Shown here piece after piece: positions 13,893 to 20,280 of a stretch of DNA of 64,000 nt. Position 1 is the first letter of the stretch. Every line of letters begins with the position of its first letter. The notes under the pieces are model-generated. The model was not told the DNA's origin. It saw nothing but the letters and a program-made list of their open reading frames with translations, and made no database searches. The translations under genes and the position numbers were made by a program. This DNA is from Bradyrhizobium sp. NAS80.1 (GTDB lineage Bacteria > Pseudomonadota > Alphaproteobacteria > Rhizobiales > Xanthobacteraceae). The stretch covers positions 1 to 64,000 of the forward strand of contig NZ_LGHL01000211.1 in the NCBI RefSeq assembly GCF_001908205.1, read 5' to 3'.

Positions 13893-14001
13893 TTTGTCCT
13901 CCAATGTTGATCGGCCAGAAAGGGCCTGTCGAATTTTCAGCTCGTTGCAAAAGGCAGATCATCAACGGTCAAAAATGAATCGGGCCGATCGGCCGCTGCG
14001 A

Positions 14002-14124
14002 TCAGGGCACGTTAACTGTGGGCAATGAGCCCGTAGGACGAATTGAGGCCCCGCTTTGCTGCAACTGCCCCAAGGCCGCGAGTGCGACGAAAACAGCAAA
14101 TGCCAGGACAGTTCGCGCAGACAA
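14002..14124 (-). CDS. 40-residue secreted peptide with TTG start
   Basis: A short frame from TTG 14124 to TGA 14002, with an AAGGAG site 6 bases upstream. The product reads MSARTVLAFAVFVALAALGQ, then LQQSGASIRPTGSLPTVNVP: a compact signal peptide plus about 18-20 mature residues. The TTG start is justified by the ribosome site and by the signal peptide, which has the required Arg and hydrophobic core. No function can be assigned. It was missed by ATG-only reading, where another frame covers the region. Confidence 0.5.
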   Translation of the reverse strand: MSARTVLAFAVFVALAALGQLQQSGASIRPTGSLPTVNVP

Positions 14125-14348
14125 GGTGGTCTCCTTGAAATCCCAAGGACGCCGGTGACCGGGTTTTGCGCCGCCCGCCAGATCAATTCCTGCTGTTGAA
14201 TAGGCCAGGCGACGTTAGTGGCCGCGTGAATCCACCGTTATTGCAGCGTAAAAACTGCTCGCGATTCCGCAAAAACATGTAACGTGGCTTTCGGAGCGCG
14301 CTGGAAGCCTGCGGGAAGGCCTTGGATTTCAGGAAAGCCTTGGATTTG

Positions 14349-17300
14349 ATGACGAACGGCGCACCTTCTCCGAGATTCCGCCTGAAGTTGCTGGGGGCAT
14401 TCGAGCTCGTCGGGCCAGACGGCGTTGTTGACTTGTCCAGCAAGAAGCTTGCGGGGGTATTGGCCTATCTGGCTTGCAATGCCTCCCGGCCGTCACCGCG
14501 CGAGAAGCTGTCGGCGTTGCTGTGGGGGTCTTACTTTGACGCGCAGGCCAGGCAGAACCTGCGTCAGGCCCTCTTCCGGCTGCGCAAGGTGCTCGGCCAG
14601 GATGCGATGGGAGGTGACGGCGAGGTCGTATCGCTCGATCCGGCAGCGGTTTTCTGCGATGTCGCGCAGTTCGAGGCCTTGATCCGCGAGGGCAGCCGTG
14701 ACGCGCTGACCGCGGCGGTCGACCTCTATCGAGGCCGGCTGATCGAGGACCTGACGGTCGGCGAAGAGGGCTGGAACGAGTGGCTCTCGGGCGAACGTAA
14801 GCGGCTGGATGAGCTCGCCCTTGGTGCCATGGTGAGGCTCGGCGATCAGGAGTTGGCGGTAGGCCGCGCCGAACATGCTTTGAAGGCTGGCCAGCGCGCC
14901 ATTGCGCTGAACGACATGCGCGAGGACGCCCATCGATTGGTCGTGCGAGCGCTGGCCGCCACCGGACGGAAGGCCGAGGGGCTCAAGCATTATCAAAACC
15001 TCGTCGAGTTCCTCAAACGCGAGCTGAACACGGAGCCTGACGCAGCGACCAGGTCGCTCGCCGCCGAGCTGCGCAACATCCAGCCGCCCGGCGGATCGCC
15101 CGCGGTCAATGAGATCGCGCCGACACAGCCCGAGCCGGTGCTTCCGTTCGTTGATATGGGCGCGGGCCCTGAGCACCCCGCCGGCACCGAGAGCAACGTT
15201 GCGAGAGGCGACGAGGCATCATCTGCGACGATGGTCCGCTCTGGACCGGAGCGGCGGCCGCTGACAGTCCTGGTCTGCAATATCATCGGGTCGGTGCCGC
15301 TTTCGACGCGGCTCGACCCTGAGGACATGCACGATCTCATCGTCCTCTTCCATAAAGCGGTCGCCGACACGGCGTCGCGATTTGGCGGGTTTGTCGCCCA
15401 GTATCTCAGCGACGGGGTGCGTGTTTATTTCGGCTACCCGGCGGCTCACGAGCATGACGCCGAGCAGGCCGTGCGGGCGGGTGCTGCCATCATCGAAATC
15501 GTGGAAACCCTGAGAACGTCGTCCGCCGTGACCCTGCGGGCGAGCGTTGGCATCGCCACGGGTCTCGTCGTCGTCGACGAGAGGCCGGACAAAAGGCAAC
15601 AGGTCGCGATCGGCGAGGCGCCAAACATTGCGGCGAAGTTGCAGGCCCTGGCATCGCCCGGCGAGGTCGTTATCGCCGCCAGCACGCATCGGCTGGTGGG
15701 GCGGATGTTCGACTGCCGCGCACTGGCTGCGATTGAAGTGGAGGGGTTGTCGCAGCCGGTCGAGGCGTGGAAGGTGCGCGGCGAGGCGGCAGGTGTCAGT
15801 CGCTTCGAAGCGCGGCGCCCCAGGGGGCAGTCGAAGCTCGTCGGCCGGCGGGACGAGATCGAGCTGCTGCTCCGCCGTTGGGATCAGGCCAAGGCTGGCG
15901 AGGGAAAGGTCGTGGTGCTTTCCGGCGAGCCCGGCATCGGCAAGTCGCGTATCGCTGAAAGTCTCCTGCTTGAACTGGGCGATCAGCCGCATGCGCGTCT
16001 TCGCTATTTCTGCTCGCCCCATCATACGCAGAGTCCACTCTACCCGCTGATCACGCAGCTCGAGCAAGCTGCCGGATTCGAACCCGGCAGCTCCCCCGAA
16101 GCGAAGCTCGACAAACTGGAGGTCATGCTCCGGCCGACGTCGAAAGATCTGCGACGCGACGTTGCGCTGGTCGCCGAGCTGATTGGAACGCCGGCGGACG
16201 AACGCTATCCGGCCCTGGACGTCAGTCCTCAGCAGAAACGAGAGATGACTCTCGCGGCACTGCTCGACCTGGTCGCAGGGGCGGCGGCGCTGCGCCCCCT
16301 GCTGATCGTATTCGAGGATGCTCACTGGATCGATCCGACCTCACAGGATCTGCTTGATCGAATGGTCGCCCGCATCGCCGGTCTGCCGGTGCTGCTGGTC
16401 GTCACGGTCCGGCCGGAGCTCAAGCCGAGCTGGGTCGGCGAGCCGCAAGTCTCGATGCTGGCCCTGAGCCGGCTCGGCCGCCGCGACAGTTCGGCCATCA
16501 TTGCCGGCGTCGCCCGGGACAAGGCGCTGCCCGACGTGGTCGTCGAGCAGGTGCTTTCGCACACGGATGGCGTGCCGCTGTTCATCGAGGAATTGACCAG
16601 CAACCTGATCGAGAGCGGAGCTCTCCGCGAGACGGCCGCCGGCTACGAGCTCGACGGGCAACTCCCGAAGCTCGCCATCCCGACGACCTTGCAGGCCTCG
16701 CTGCTGGCGCGCCTCGATCGTTTCGCCTCGGTCAAGGATGTGGCGCAGATCGGTGCCGCGATTGGACGCGAATTCTCCCACGAGTTGATCGCGGCGGTGT
16801 CGCCTCTCGCCCCGAACGACCTCGATGCGGCGCTCGAGCGGTTGACGGAAGCCGGCCTCATTGCCCGACGTGGAACGCCGCCGGACGCGACCTATACGTT
16901 CAAGCATGCGCTGGTGCAGGATGCTGCTTACGACACGATGATCAGGAGCCGGCGGCGACCGCTGCATGCGAGCATCGCCAAAGGGCTGGTCGAGCGGTTT
17001 CCGGCGCTGGCCGAAAGCCTGCCTGAAGTCGTAGCCCATCACTTCACCGAGGCGGGGCTCACGGTCGAGGCGATCGCCTGCTGGCTCAAGGCGGGTCGGC
17101 TCGCATCCGCGCGATCCGCCAATCGCGAGGCCGTCAGCTCGCTTGAGCGGGCGCGGAGCCTCATCGACACATTGCCCGAGAGCCGCTCCAGGCTGGAGCA
17201 GGGCTACGATGTCCGTCTCGAGCTGCGTCCGGTGCTGCTCGAGCTCGGCCGAGGCGCGCAAATGCTGGAGTGCCTGCGCGAGGCAGAGGCGCTCGCCGAT

Positions 17301-18347
17301 CAGCTAAACGATGACCGCCGGCGGGGCGGCGTCTATGGATTCATGACGGTGGTCTATTCGTTGGCCGGCGAGCTCGACCAGGCGCTCGCGGCCGGTTCGC
17401 GCGCACTGGAGGTTGCAGGGCGCCTGGACGATCTGCGGCTTCGTATCGTCGCCACCAGCCTTCTCCTGCAGGTGCACCACGCCATGGGGCACTATGACGA
17501 GGTGATCGAGCTCGCGACCGGCAATCTGGCTGCGTTGCCCGGCGAATGGGTCCATGAAACCCTTGGCCTTGGTGGCCCACCCTCGGTCTGGGATCGGGGC
17601 TGTCTGGTCCAGAGCCTTGCCGAGCGCGGCAGATTTGCCGAGGCGGCCGGCCACGAGGCCGAGATGCTCCGTCTCGCCGAGCTGAGCCAGCACTCCTTTA
17701 CGATCAGCATGGCCAATTTCGCATCCAGCGTGCTCCACATCATCAAAGGCGACTGGGCCGAGGCGCACTCACGGATCGAACGCTGGGTCGCGCTGGCCCG
17801 AACGGGGAAATTCTCGTTCCATCTGTCCTGGGGTGTCGCCGCTTCATGCTGGCCGACAGCGCAACTCGGCGAACAGAACGAAGCATCAAACCGGATCACG
17901 GAGGCCGAGGCGCTCCTCGAACGCCTGGCCGCGGGCCGAATCCGTGCGTCTCTCGTCTGGTTCTATTGCTCGGTCGCGCGCGCTTGCCTGTTGCTCGGCC
18001 GGCTCGACGAGGCGAGGCGCCTCGGTTACCGTGCGCTCGACTTCTGCACGCTCCAACCCGGCTTCGAGGCCCATGCGCGGCATCTGCTCGGCGATGTAGC
18101 GACCCATCCCGATCGAATCGATGCCGAGCAAGGCGAAGCTCATTATCACTACGCGCTGGCGCTTGCCGAGCGGCTCGACATGGCGCCAATGATCGCGCAT
18201 TGCCATTTCGGTCTCGCCAAAATCCGATTGCGCAGCGGCGCGCACGAGCAGGCGCAAGTGCATGTCGCGACGGCGGCGACGATGTATCGTGGCATGGGCA
18301 TGACGCACTGGCTGGTGCAGGCGGAAGCGTTGCTGGCTCGACCGTAG
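14349..18347 (+). CDS. Large SARP/BTAD regulator with degenerate class III cyclase, ATPase and TPR domains
   Basis: A 1,332-residue cytoplasmic protein. Domains in order: an N-terminal winged helix plus BTAD (about 8-245; FRLKLLGAFELVGPDG, NLRQALFRLRKVLGQ); a class III nucleotide-cyclase domain (about 300-465); an AAA/STAND-type ATPase with Walker A GEPGIGKS near 526-533 and Walker B LLIVFEDAHW near 651-660; and C-terminal TPR-like helices (about 880-1330). In the cyclase the first metal-binding Asp of the usual CDLVGS is Asn311 (CNIIGS), and the transition-state Arg of NxxxR is Lys430. Asp355 in YLSDGV and Asn426 are kept, so it is likely poor or inactive, possibly a nucleotide sensor. ATG 14349 is preferred over TTG 14322; AGGAAAG lies 11 bases upstream. 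It is convergent with the DyP genes. Confidence 0.85.
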   Translation: MTNGAPSPRFRLKLLGAFELVGPDGVVDLSSKKLAGVLAYLACNASRPSPREKLSALLWGSYFDAQARQNLRQALFRLRKVLGQDAMGGDGEVVSLDPAAVFCDVAQFEALIREGSRDALTAAVDLYRGRLIEDLTVGEEGWNEWLSGERKRLDELALGAMVRLGDQELAVGRAEHALKAGQRAIALNDMREDAHRLVVRALAATGRKAEGLKHYQNLVEFLKRELNTEPDAATRSLAAELRNIQPPGGSPAVNEIAPTQPEPVLPFVDMGAGPEHPAGTESNVARGDEASSATMVRSGPERRPLTVLVCNIIGSVPLSTRLDPEDMHDLIVLFHKAVADTASRFGGFVAQYLSDGVRVYFGYPAAHEHDAEQAVRAGAAIIEIVETLRTSSAVTLRASVGIATGLVVVDERPDKRQQVAIGEAPNIAAKLQALASPGEVVIAASTHRLVGRMFDCRALAAIEVEGLSQPVEAWKVRGEAAGVSRFEARRPRGQSKLVGRRDEIELLLRRWDQAKAGEGKVVVLSGEPGIGKSRIAESLLLELGDQPHARLRYFCSPHHTQSPLYPLITQLEQAAGFEPGSSPEAKLDKLEVMLRPTSKDLRRDVALVAELIGTPADERYPALDVSPQQKREMTLAALLDLVAGAAALRPLLIVFEDAHWIDPTSQDLLDRMVARIAGLPVLLVVTVRPELKPSWVGEPQVSMLALSRLGRRDSSAIIAGVARDKALPDVVVEQVLSHTDGVPLFIEELTSNLIESGALRETAAGYELDGQLPKLAIPTTLQASLLARLDRFASVKDVAQIGAAIGREFSHELIAAVSPLAPNDLDAALERLTEAGLIARRGTPPDATYTFKHALVQDAAYDTMIRSRRRPLHASIAKGLVERFPALAESLPEVVAHHFTEAGLTVEAIACWLKAGRLASARSANREAVSSLERARSLIDTLPESRSRLEQGYDVRLELRPVLLELGRGAQMLECLREAEALADQLNDDRRRGGVYGFMTVVYSLAGELDQALAAGSRALEVAGRLDDLRLRIVATSLLLQVHHAMGHYDEVIELATGNLAALPGEWVHETLGLGGPPSVWDRGCLVQSLAERGRFAEAAGHEAEMLRLAELSQHSFTISMANFASSVLHIIKGDWAEAHSRIERWVALARTGKFSFHLSWGVAASCWPTAQLGEQNEASNRITEAEALLERLAAGRIRASLVWFYCSVARACLLLGRLDEARRLGYRALDFCTLQPGFEAHARHLLGDVATHPDRIDAEQGEAHYHYALALAERLDMAPMIAHCHFGLAKIRLRSGAHEQAQVHVATAATMYRGMGMTHWLVQAEALLARP

Positions 18348-18382: not shown

Positions 18383-19765
18383 TTATGCCGACAGCCCCGC
18401 AACGCGCCGCAGTGTCTTCAAGCTTGGCAGCAGGCAATACGCCGTCCCGCGCGTGACGATGAATTGCGGCAGCTTCGGAATCCTGATTTTCTTCTCTTTT
18501 GTAATCGCAATCGTGAACGATGGATCGATGCCGGGGGCTCCGCGGTTGGCAAGCAAGGCGTCCTGGGTATTCAGGCCGGGGGAAAACACCGCGCTGAAAT
18601 TATTGGTGTTGATCCACCCGTAGAGCAGTTCGAACTGGCCGGCCAGCGCGCCACACAGGAACAGGCCGACCAGGCCGCGCTCGCCTTCGTAATTCGGTGG
18701 CGCAGGCGGCGCACCGTACGGCACACCGCGGCGGATCAGGCGGGGCACTGGCGCGTCCGACGCATACACCGCCTGGTCGCGCGGGTTCGCCACGCGCGTG
18801 TGGGCCGAGTACGGACATCGCAGCCCAGGGCGATCATCCGGCTCATAGCGGAAATCGGTTGCGCCCGCCGTCGCCGGATCCGGCGCATCAGGCGACAGCG
18901 CGAGCGGCGAGCCGTTGCGCCAGCGGCCGACCAACTTGGCCGCCAGCCATTCGCGCGCGTGATCTTCCGAGCCGCCGATCGCCGCGACGACCTCGGGCGC
19001 GGTGTTGGCCAGAAACTGGTCGAAAGCCCCGACATCCTGATAGAGCACGCGAAAGGCGCAGTAACATCCATCCTTGGCGAATTCGCCCGCCTGTCCGACG
19101 TCCGGCCCTGGACCGAATGCCGACCCCGGATAGCCGATCAGGAAGTTGTTGGCGTCGCCCGGGTCGGTGGTTGAGGGATCGGCAGGCCAGCCGAGATCAG
19201 GATTGTCGATTCCGTCGCGGTAGCCGAAGTGAATGAAGTTCTCGAGCGGAGCGTATTGTTGCAGCCGGCCGCTCTGGCCGCTCTCGGGACGGAGCGGCAG
19301 AATCTCGCGCAGCCCATTGTTCGCAGCCGCCTGCGACACCAGCGCGACCAGGCCGTCCAACGCGTCCTGGGTCATCCCGTAGACATGGACGATGCAGTGG
19401 ATGGCCTGCTTGTCCTGGCTGTTCCACCACCTGGCCGGATCGCTCGCGCCCGTGTCGTACAGCGATTGTTGCGAGTCTTCGGACCAGGGACCGGCCTCGA
19501 ACTCGGGCGGAAATTGACGCCCGAAGGCAGGTTCGAAGGTCAGGATCCCGTTGAAGGTAAGGCCGATATTGAGCATTCGCTCCGGCTTGTCGCTCCAGGC
19601 CTCTGCGGATTGGACGTAAGGCAGCAGTGCCCGGACGAATCCGGCCGCACCCCGGCGGCCTGTGAACGAGAACATCAGGTGGCATGAATGCGGATGGGTA
19701 TAGCCGCGCAGGATCAGGCCTTGCACGTTGCCCGGTTGGTACGGCGGCGCGGGGCTGGTCGTCAT
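18383..19765 (-). CDS. DyP-type heme peroxidase
   Basis: A 460-residue protein from ATG 19765. The DyP signature GYRDG is at residues 182-186 (catalytic Asp184), the proximal heme ligand is His322 in SAHTRVANPR, and RRGVPYG and RGLVGLFLCGAL follow as in the family. It uses H2O2 to oxidise dyes, phenolics or other substrates. At 460 residues it fits the longer C/D-type classes, not the 300-residue A/B types. There is no Tat or Sec signal, so a cytoplasmic location is likely, and there is no encapsulin gene nearby. GTG 19831 is an alternative start adding 22 residues. The gene follows the 144-residue protein in the same direction, likely as an operon. Confidence 0.88.
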   Translation of the reverse strand: MTTSPAPPYQPGNVQGLILRGYTHPHSCHLMFSFTGRRGAAGFVRALLPYVQSAEAWSDKPERMLNIGLTFNGILTFEPAFGRQFPPEFEAGPWSEDSQQSLYDTGASDPARWWNSQDKQAIHCIVHVYGMTQDALDGLVALVSQAAANNGLREILPLRPESGQSGRLQQYAPLENFIHFGYRDGIDNPDLGWPADPSTTDPGDANNFLIGYPGSAFGPGPDVGQAGEFAKDGCYCAFRVLYQDVGAFDQFLANTAPEVVAAIGGSEDHAREWLAAKLVGRWRNGSPLALSPDAPDPATAGATDFRYEPDDRPGLRCPYSAHTRVANPRDQAVYASDAPVPRLIRRGVPYGAPPAPPNYEGERGLVGLFLCGALAGQFELLYGWINTNNFSAVFSPGLNTQDALLANRGAPGIDPSFTIAITKEKKIRIPKLPQFIVTRGTAYCLLPSLKTLRRVAGLSA

Positions 19766-19845
19766 GCTGAACCGATTCCGATTGCCGTCGTCATCGGCGA
19801 CCGCGTCAGCGGCCGCCTCGACGCAGGGCACTGTTGCCTGCGGCG

Positions 19846-20280
19846 CTACGCAGATGGCGGGAAGGCAGCCTTGATCTGGCGTACGGTCTGGCCGTATGCC
19901 TGATAAAGATCATCTGACCCGCCGCTCAGATTGTTTGCTTCGATGAAATTCGCGAACTCGGTGAGGGTCTTGAGCGGCGAGGCAGGGGGATGGAGCGCCA
20001 TGGCGGTGATCCCCGCGAACAGCTTCCGAAGCTCCGGGTCTTCCCAGAAAAACCTGAGATAGGGAAGCATCGGGCCGTCGAACGTCGTGATCACGCAGAT
20101 CGCCTGAATGCCTTTCCCGTCGGGATTGGGAATCAACACGAAGCGCGCATAGTGGACGTCCACGAAACGATCGAGCTGCTCCTTGTGCAGGGTCACGAAA
20201 TGATCGTGCGCCTCCTGGGCCGCTTTTTGGATCGCCGGATCCTGCTTGATCGGGATGTAGAGCGTGAGCGGATTGGCCAT
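19846..20280 (-). CDS. 144-residue protein of unknown function, DyP operon partner
   Basis: Starts MANPLTLYIPIKQDPAIQKA with a GGGAGC ribosome site upstream. Visible features are HYARFVLIPNPDGKGIQAIC followed by VITTFDGPMLPYLRFFWEDP, which looks like an alpha/beta domain with conserved His-Tyr-Ala-Arg and Thr-Thr-Phe-Asp-Gly-Pro motifs. The last helices are acidic and Ala-rich. It precedes the DyP gene by about 80 bp in the same direction. I do not recognise a named family. It may form a complex with DyP or supply its substrate; this is inference from position only. Confidence 0.7.
   Translation of the reverse strand: MANPLTLYIPIKQDPAIQKAAQEAHDHFVTLHKEQLDRFVDVHYARFVLIPNPDGKGIQAICVITTFDGPMLPYLRFFWEDPELRKLFAGITAMALHPPASPLKTLTEFANFIEANNLSGGSDDLYQAYGQTVRQIKAAFPPSA

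Follow-up and report, generated by a model that had tools for sequence, protein, structure and literature searches.

A probable pseudocyclase within an AfsR-like regulator of Bradyrhizobium sp. NAS80.1

Architecture of the regulator gene

The window, a 64,000-nucleotide (nt) stretch at the start of contig NZ_LGHL01000211.1 of Bradyrhizobium sp. NAS80.1 (genome of 9.2 Mb in 532 contigs), contains a gene for a large fused protein that joins a winged helix and BTAD, a degenerate class III cyclase homology domain, a STAND ATPase and TPR-type repeats. The gene is a single open frame at 14322-18347 on the plus strand. It encodes 1341 amino acids (aa) counted from a TTG and 1332 aa from the ATG at 14349, and residues are numbered from this ATG. 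The start region (14314-14349) is a near-perfect 18-nt tandem duplication (89%) that results in three in-frame start candidates, TTG, TTG and ATG, and both copies carry a GGAA-type possible ribosome site. The gene and its parts are as follows.

14349..18347, plus strand: coding sequence of the regulator with BTAD, putative pseudocyclase, STAND and TPR parts, 1332 aa; other in-frame starts at TTG 14322 and TTG 14340
14370..14603, plus strand: winged-helix DNA-binding part, residues 8-85; Pfam Trans_reg_C E 5e-4, below cut-off, and model match to AfsR SARP domain 8k60_J
14688..15074, plus strand: BTAD, residues 114-242; Pfam PF03704 E 1.2e-26, above cut-off
15087..15242, plus strand: predicted disordered linker, residues 247-298, near-neutral; pLDDT <50, and pooled dN/dS 0.77 for residues 244-299 (both measures are explained below)
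15246..15794, plus strand: class III cyclase homology domain, degenerate, residues 300-482, from Pfam, alignment and fold match; Guanylate_cyc 305-473, E 1.6e-9, above cut-off
15834..16628, plus strand: STAND/AAA_16 ATPase, residues 496-760, from Pfam and model; AAA_16 496-684, E 2.1e-21, above cut-off
15924..15947, plus strand: Walker A GEPGIGKS, residues 526-533, from the family alignment
16311..16334, plus strand: Walker B FEDAHWID, residues 655-662, from the family alignment
17169..18344, plus strand: putative TPR-type helical repeat sensor, residues 941-1332; TPR_12 in four stretches, E 9e-5, below cut-off, and helical hairpins in the model

A sequence-only reading of this DNA had proposed that BTAD, cyclase, STAND and TPR parts form one fused sensor-regulator, and this was confirmed by the single 1332-aa frame, the Pfam domains and the fold matches. 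AlphaFold models (AF2) were built from alignments of the window protein with related proteins. The model of residues 1-500 had a mean predicted local distance difference test score (pLDDT) of 80.7, with residues 247-298 predicted to be disordered, and the model of residues 480-1332 had a mean pLDDT of 89.1, with helical hairpins in the TPR part. With Foldseek, the first model matched class III cyclases (best TM-score to target 0.93) and the AfsR SARP domain 8k60_J (TM-score to target 0.79). The top match of the second model by E-value was 6mfv, a STAND-TPR protein, with a low TM-score. The Walker A motif G(E/D)(P/A)GIGKS was present in all 41 fused rows (sequences joining BTAD and cyclase) that cover the site, of 43 rows, and the E, D, W and D of Walker B were invariant in a 17-row alignment. 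GerE/LuxR was absent from the 12 Pfam families matched by the protein at E up to 1, and no kinase family was found among its Pfam matches.

Three features of a large SARP of the AfsR type were present, namely a winged helix with BTAD, a STAND/NOD ATPase that carries both Walker motifs, and C-terminal TPR, as in AfsR of Streptomyces coelicolor (the portion of PMC10936776 used here). From this homology to AfsR, the window protein would act as a regulator. It differs from AfsR in having a cyclase domain, which does not appear in the AfsR domain list in that portion of PMC10936776, and it scored 27.7 bits against the NCBIfam AfsR model, for which the cut-off is 1430. The Mclx proteins of Mycobacterium (cyclase/LuxR-like; Rv0386, Rv1358 and Rv2488c) also carry cyclase homology, an AAA/STAND part and a DNA-binding domain in one chain, but they belong to another phylum and have a C-terminal LuxR helix-turn-helix, and the sections of PMC4452763 drawn on here name no BTAD. 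NCBIfam TIGR03903 (TOMM_kin_cyc) matched a homologous cyclase-STAND-TPR part (420.2 bits, residues 281-1152, from model position 269), although that family has an N-terminal kinase and the score is below its 705.75-bit cut-off. No BTAD-cyclase-STAND proteins of Alphaproteobacteria were recognised among the titles listed by searches of the openly licensed PMC literature.

Degeneration of the cyclase site

In class III cyclases, the positions of residues 311 and 355 hold metal Asp 1 and Asp 2 (sites 1 and 2), and those of 426 and 430 hold the transition-state Asn and Arg. These positions were assigned in the window protein from phmmer alignments to the solved cyclases 2w01 and 3r5g.

15279..15281, plus strand: codon of N311, metal Asp 1 position (phmmer alignment)
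15399..15401, plus strand: codon of Q351, substrate-specifying position (Q in 32 of 34 clade A+B rows)
15411..15413, plus strand: codon of D355, metal Asp 2, kept (phmmer alignment)
15624..15626, plus strand: codon of N426, transition-state Asn, kept (phmmer alignment)
15636..15638, plus strand: codon of K430, transition-state Arg position (phmmer alignment)

Opposite the Asp/Asp/Asn/Arg of 2w01 and 3r5g, the window protein has N311/D355/N426/K430, so that all four residues had been assigned correctly in the sequence-only reading. That reading counted two key residues as lost, which is right for N311 and K430 but overlooked Q351, a position that aligns with a Lys of the adenylyl cyclase CyaB (3r5g) and with a Glu of the guanylyl cyclase Cya2 (2w01). 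By alignment, the changed catalytic or substrate positions are therefore three and not two. The window protein thus shares its fold with the solved class III cyclases (Cya2 2w01, CyaB 3r5g, CyaC 1wc1 and RhGC 5oyh) but departs from Cya2 and CyaB in its metal, substrate and transition-state residues; it lacks a complete pair of metal Asp and a complete Asn and Arg pair. The degenerate site is not a chance resemblance, since the domain scores above the Pfam cut-off, the model matches solved cyclases and close relatives also have a degenerate site. Judged from these residues, the domain is very probably without catalysis.

The family was then defined by genome scans, in which the member counts are lower bounds, with few candidates scored per genome. 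The genus scan covered 265 genomes, and at least 27 rows among the matches listed (window included) spanned BTAD and cyclase, with a 28th in two pieces. A scan of named genomes gave at least 70 loci and added members from Tardiphaga, Bosea, Rhodomicrobium, two Rhodospirillales, and metagenome-assembled genomes (MAGs) of Reyranella, Xanthobacteraceae and Acetobacteraceae. In the first comparison, 42 of the 43 distinct BTAD-cyclase sequences lacked one or both metal Asp, and only L122, from Rhodospirillaceae SYSU D60007, kept both (residue set D/R/D/N/R).

The losses were not uniform. In the 34 rows of clades A and B (named from the tree described below), the residues at 311 and 355 were ND in 14, DN in 5, HN in 4, KD in 2 and QN in 2, and HD, SD, KS, TD, DH, NN and SE were seen once each. 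Asp 1, Asp 2 or both were thus lost, with N, S, K, T, H or Q at site 1 and N, H, S or E at site 2. All seven clade C sequences had DT, with Asp 2 changed to T, the Asn to Q and the Arg to G, A or S, and they kept K or R at 351. L138 had G/D. The spread of the N311/K430 pair had been put forward as a check, and the pair proved not to be widespread: N311 was found in 15 of the 34 clade A+B rows, and K430 in the window protein only (1 of 48 fused sequences), so it was rejected as a family trait. What is widespread is loss of a metal Asp.

Asn can bind metal weakly, and the window protein keeps Asp 2 and N426, so low-level catalysis by an unconventional route, with one metal or alternative ligands, might be imagined. 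We consider this very unlikely, because the window protein has changes at Asp 1, at the substrate position and at the transition-state Arg, and clade mates carry His, Lys, Thr, Ser or Gln in place of Asp 1, which could hardly support one shared mechanism.

A scan of the class (385 genomes) was done after the rule that BTAD fusion always kills the cyclase had been framed. Of the five new fused sequences, two had lost metal residues, L243 (T/N) at both sites and L247 (G/D) at site 1, and three (L245, L246 and L250) kept both Asp, L246 with a full D/K/D/N/R set. The strict rule was withdrawn as a result. In the final tally, at least one metal Asp is missing from 44 of the 48 distinct BTAD-cyclase-STAND sequences, and four divergent ones keep both. 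Since these four exist, BTAD fusion does not require inactivation, and L246, L245, L250 and L122 are possible SARP-linked active cyclases by their residues. A scan of the order (297 genomes) gave no new fused members, its two spanning matches outside the genus (L176 and L177) being identical to L121 and L138, and a scan of the phylum (398 genomes, E up to 1e-80) gave no new fused sequence.

Relatives without BTAD behaved differently from the fused proteins. Both sites are visible in 37 of 38 unfused sequences, and each of these 37 retains the two metal Asp, as did all 35 visible rows of an earlier 36-row set. The BTAD-less cyclase-STAND-TPR proteins of Bradyrhizobium resemble the window protein (36-54% identical among the genus relatives listed), but have no BTAD and kept the D/D pair in those compared. 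The same was seen within the window genome, where stretches found by Pfam search gave 54 cyclase-domain pieces. The metal pair was lost in 3 of 3 BTAD-fused pieces and kept as D/D in 49 of 49 BTAD-less pieces with visible sites; two further BTAD-less pieces had no visible sites, which left 52 scored.

Some sequences were kept apart in these counts. L159, L162 and L169 (BTAD-STAND matches without a cyclase match) are not in the fused set, L003 is in the 38-row but not the 36-row unfused set, L248 was counted as unfused, and L108, L112 and L032 (too short or with a part absent) are not in the trees. L176, L177 and L244 are identical to L121, L138 and L122 and were not added. Two family members, L045/L108 and L096/L117, are each split into two overlapping frames, by frameshift or assembly error. 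Adjoining the Reyranella regulator is a second BTAD-cyclase copy of 460 aa (L111:10911-12290) that stops inside the cyclase domain. Its sites 1 and 2 hold His and Asp, respectively, and it falls below the length rule and so outside the 48.

A tree was built from the cyclase and STAND domains without the trait columns. It kept clade C (7 rows), which lay inside the unfused D/D proteins, apart from clade A+B (32 rows, later 33). A single origin of clades A+B and C was rejected, as the constrained tree was 61 log units worse (approximately unbiased test, p-AU 0.002), in a test that left out the long rows L003, L138, L199 and L200 and used groups named after the tree was seen. The BTAD tree also split A+B from C, placing clade C beside Bradyrhizobium L142-L147 and A+B with L122 and L136. 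L144, the one scanned of L142-L147, is a BTAD-STAND protein without a cyclase match. Judged from these trees, the simplest history is probably two or more separate BTAD fusions followed by loss of metal Asp. Alternatively, the BTAD part may have been exchanged at a later point. The BTAD tree further placed a set of 662-675-aa proteins (L099-L101 and L124-L130) within clade A. L101, the one scanned, has BTAD and TPR, no cyclase or STAND match, and a middle part without a Pfam match.

Constraint on the domain and its likely role

Ratios of nonsynonymous to synonymous substitution rates (dN/dS) were pooled over seven fused sister pairs and seven unfused pairs that we chose. Fused pairs gave 0.19 for BTAD, 0.77 for the linker, 0.27 for the cyclase, 0.27 for STAND and 0.49 for TPR, and unfused pairs gave 0.19 for the cyclase, 0.16 for STAND and 0.24 for TPR. 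The degenerate cyclase domain is under purifying selection as tight as that on the neighbouring STAND ATPase. In clades A+B and C, the catalytic and neighbouring columns 309, 311, 315, 316, 355, 426 and 430 vary, and fold residues such as R303, G347, F361, G362, E368, G401, G405, G422, A428, T446 and F454 are invariant.

These data bear on two forms of decay, a domain that persists as a neutral relic or a gene that is turning into a pseudogene. The two members split into overlapping frames, the 460-aa copy that stops within the cyclase domain, and the BTAD-TPR proteins that nest in clade A and lack cyclase and STAND domains would all fit such decay. However, the cyclase value equals that of STAND and is far under that of the linker, the fold residues are invariant, and the remaining fused rows listed from the genus scan are long frames without stops. 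Pseudogene decay was rejected on dN/dS, and we regard decay of either kind as the most improbable of the explanations considered.

The window gene is probably an AfsR-like SARP-STAND-TPR regulator in which a pseudocyclase serves as a non-catalytic dimerisation or allosteric module. Its architecture, the lesions, the repeated loss, the purifying selection and the intact Walker motifs were all observed. Since loss of the metal residues recurs by different mutations while the domain is kept, the pseudocyclase is probably part of a switch and not an enzyme. AfsR is held inactive by its own STAND and TPR parts, and ATP binding relieves this inhibition (PMC10936776, in the portion used). In the window protein, the N-terminal winged helix and BTAD would bind DNA and RNA polymerase, the TPR superhelix would sense an inducer, and the STAND ATPase would gate the regulator through ATP binding, the same gate as in AfsR being expected. 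The pseudocyclase, placed between the disordered linker and the STAND gate, may pair two chains on DNA through a class III dimer, and could in this way relay the state of STAND to the BTAD dimer.

Several points weigh against this interpretation. L122, L245, L246 and L250 are divergent BTAD-cyclase fusions that keep both metal Asp. The dN/dS of fused pairs is above that of unfused pairs in every shared domain, and thus there is some general relaxation in the fused proteins. Independent fusion contrasts are few (4 pairs), with a sign test p of 0.25-0.5. Some weak activity may also persist, or the domain may take part in composite sites with another cyclase.

Class III active sites form at dimer interfaces. 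The domain could accordingly be a half-site that complements another cyclase of the cell as a heterodimer, like the animal C1/C2 pair, with the regulator controlling or reporting the composite site. The same genome encodes 49 unfused cyclase domains that retain the metal pair, and R430 is kept in 21 of the 34 clade A+B rows. On the other hand, clade C also lacks the Asn and the Arg, no shared partner gene was seen in the family neighbourhoods, and either composite site would be crippled because the window protein has K430 and no Asp 1. This arrangement seems quite improbable to us.

Another possibility, raised in the sequence-only reading, is that the dead domain has kept the ability to bind ATP, GTP or a cyclic nucleotide and so gates the STAND ATPase. 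Despite the variable metal sites, clades A+B have fixed Q351 (32 of 34) and F334 and A420 (34 of 34 each), which suggests a new constraint near the pocket; L467 and G482 are also newly fixed in these clades. The active Rv0386 also has Gln at the substrate-specifying position. The window protein retains D355 and N426, and an allosteric response to ATP or cyclic AMP (cAMP) was proposed for Mclx2 and Mclx3, cyclase-AAA-LuxR proteins without the canonical residues (PMC4452763, sections drawn on here). Other columns do not fit a retained pocket. F309, S315 and T316, which lie beside metal site 1 and have a role in phosphate binding, decayed together with it, which disfavours a conserved canonical pocket. 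Thirteen of the 34 clade A+B rows carry D at position 426, 13 of the 34 carry Q, K, L or W at 430, and clade C keeps K or R at 351 but lacks D355, N426 and R430. Nucleotide sensing is the leading alternative, but a tentative one that we doubt.

DNA-binding STAND-type proteins with a degenerate cyclase domain have already been described, as the canonical residues are missing in two of the three Mclx proteins (PMC4452763, same sections), and inactive cyclase domains have been reported in vWA conflict systems (PMC7159879, consulted in excerpt). Our comparison adds an alphaproteobacterial regulator family in which the catalytic site was lost repeatedly by different residues and the constraint on the domain matches that on the neighbouring ATPase. 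Because intact (L122 and L246) and degenerate cousins can be compared directly, a role of cyclase domains beyond making cAMP becomes testable. A practical warning concerns genomes with dozens of cyclase-domain proteins, where such degenerate regulators should not be counted as cyclases.

Neighbouring genes and candidate targets

The neighbourhoods of 44 loci were compared, of which the flanks differ and some are cut by contig ends, and no partner gene common to them was seen. One pattern concerned clade B, a sister clade whose 13 loci come from Bradyrhizobium, Bosea, AFS057535 and a Hyphomicrobiales MAG. They were compared together with Tardiphaga L131, which has an unstable position between two versions of the cyclase-STAND tree and was not placed in clade B, making 14 loci. 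Divergent surface genes lie upstream at the following places.

L043:263-3742, L094:9261-12569, L119:2170-5736 and L137:1129-5823: divergent autotransporter genes (PF03797)
L131:523-3927: divergent autotransporter gene (PF03797), behind a LuxR-type gene
L089:9079-10656: divergent YadA-like gene (YadA_head)
L093:8895-10439: divergent YadA-like gene, match just below cut-off
L121:4000-5901: divergent YadA-like gene (YadA-type match)

Autotransporter homologues also lie upstream in L095 and, as a piece, in L096, and L092 has a divergent YadA-like gene by homology. For L090 and L121, YadA_anchor matches were found (G293:C12:424550 and G557:C3:84720), and the frames that hold them are equal in length to the neighbours. 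L044 and L091 have a different divergent protein of 441 aa, of which the L044 copy has no Pfam match. In total, a type V-like surface gene lies upstream in 12 of the 14 loci. Autotransporter domains number 5-29 in 37 of 38 genomes searched, with none in one and 26 in the window genome. Since the genomes encode so few, a surface gene as neighbour is unlikely to arise by chance, although the loci are related by descent and so are not independent cases. From their position, the autotransporter and YadA-like genes are candidate targets of the clade B regulators and of L131.

A broader scenario would combine these genes with nucleotide sensing. In it, fusion of a SARP module to a cyclase-STAND-TPR sensor in several lineages made an active cyclase into a pseudoenzyme that directly reads purine or cyclic nucleotides, with Q351 as the base contact in one large branch, and relays the signal to the promoter, and one branch controls autotransporters or YadA-like adhesins. 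We consider this scenario unlikely as a whole.

No target common to clade A emerged from the neighbourhood comparison; five related loci (L045 and L078-L081) share a divergent LuxR/PAS-type gene. A search for SARP-type direct repeats upstream of the window gene (13900-14380) found only the 18-nt tandem duplication at 14314-14349, and the operator search as a whole gave nothing usable beyond a 9-nt repeat in two clade B loci. This direct repeat, ATCCCCGGC, occurs twice with a spacing of 13 or 14 at L043:3774-3795 and L094:9207-9229, between autotransporter and regulator, and is possibly an operator by its placement.

Downstream of the window regulator, at 18383-19831 on the minus strand, lies a DyP-superfamily relative (NCBIfam TIGR01413 E 2.5e-14, below cut-off; no Pfam match at 0.001). 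DyP genes had been named as the nearest candidate targets. This proposal was rejected, as the gene is convergent (tail to tail) with the regulator and is present in 2 of 44 loci, the window and L085, which is only one of the 43 other loci compared, some of them cut by contig ends. The DyP-like gene and a same-strand 144-aa neighbour without a Pfam or NCBIfam match occupy 18383-20280 in the window, and the pair recurs beside L085.

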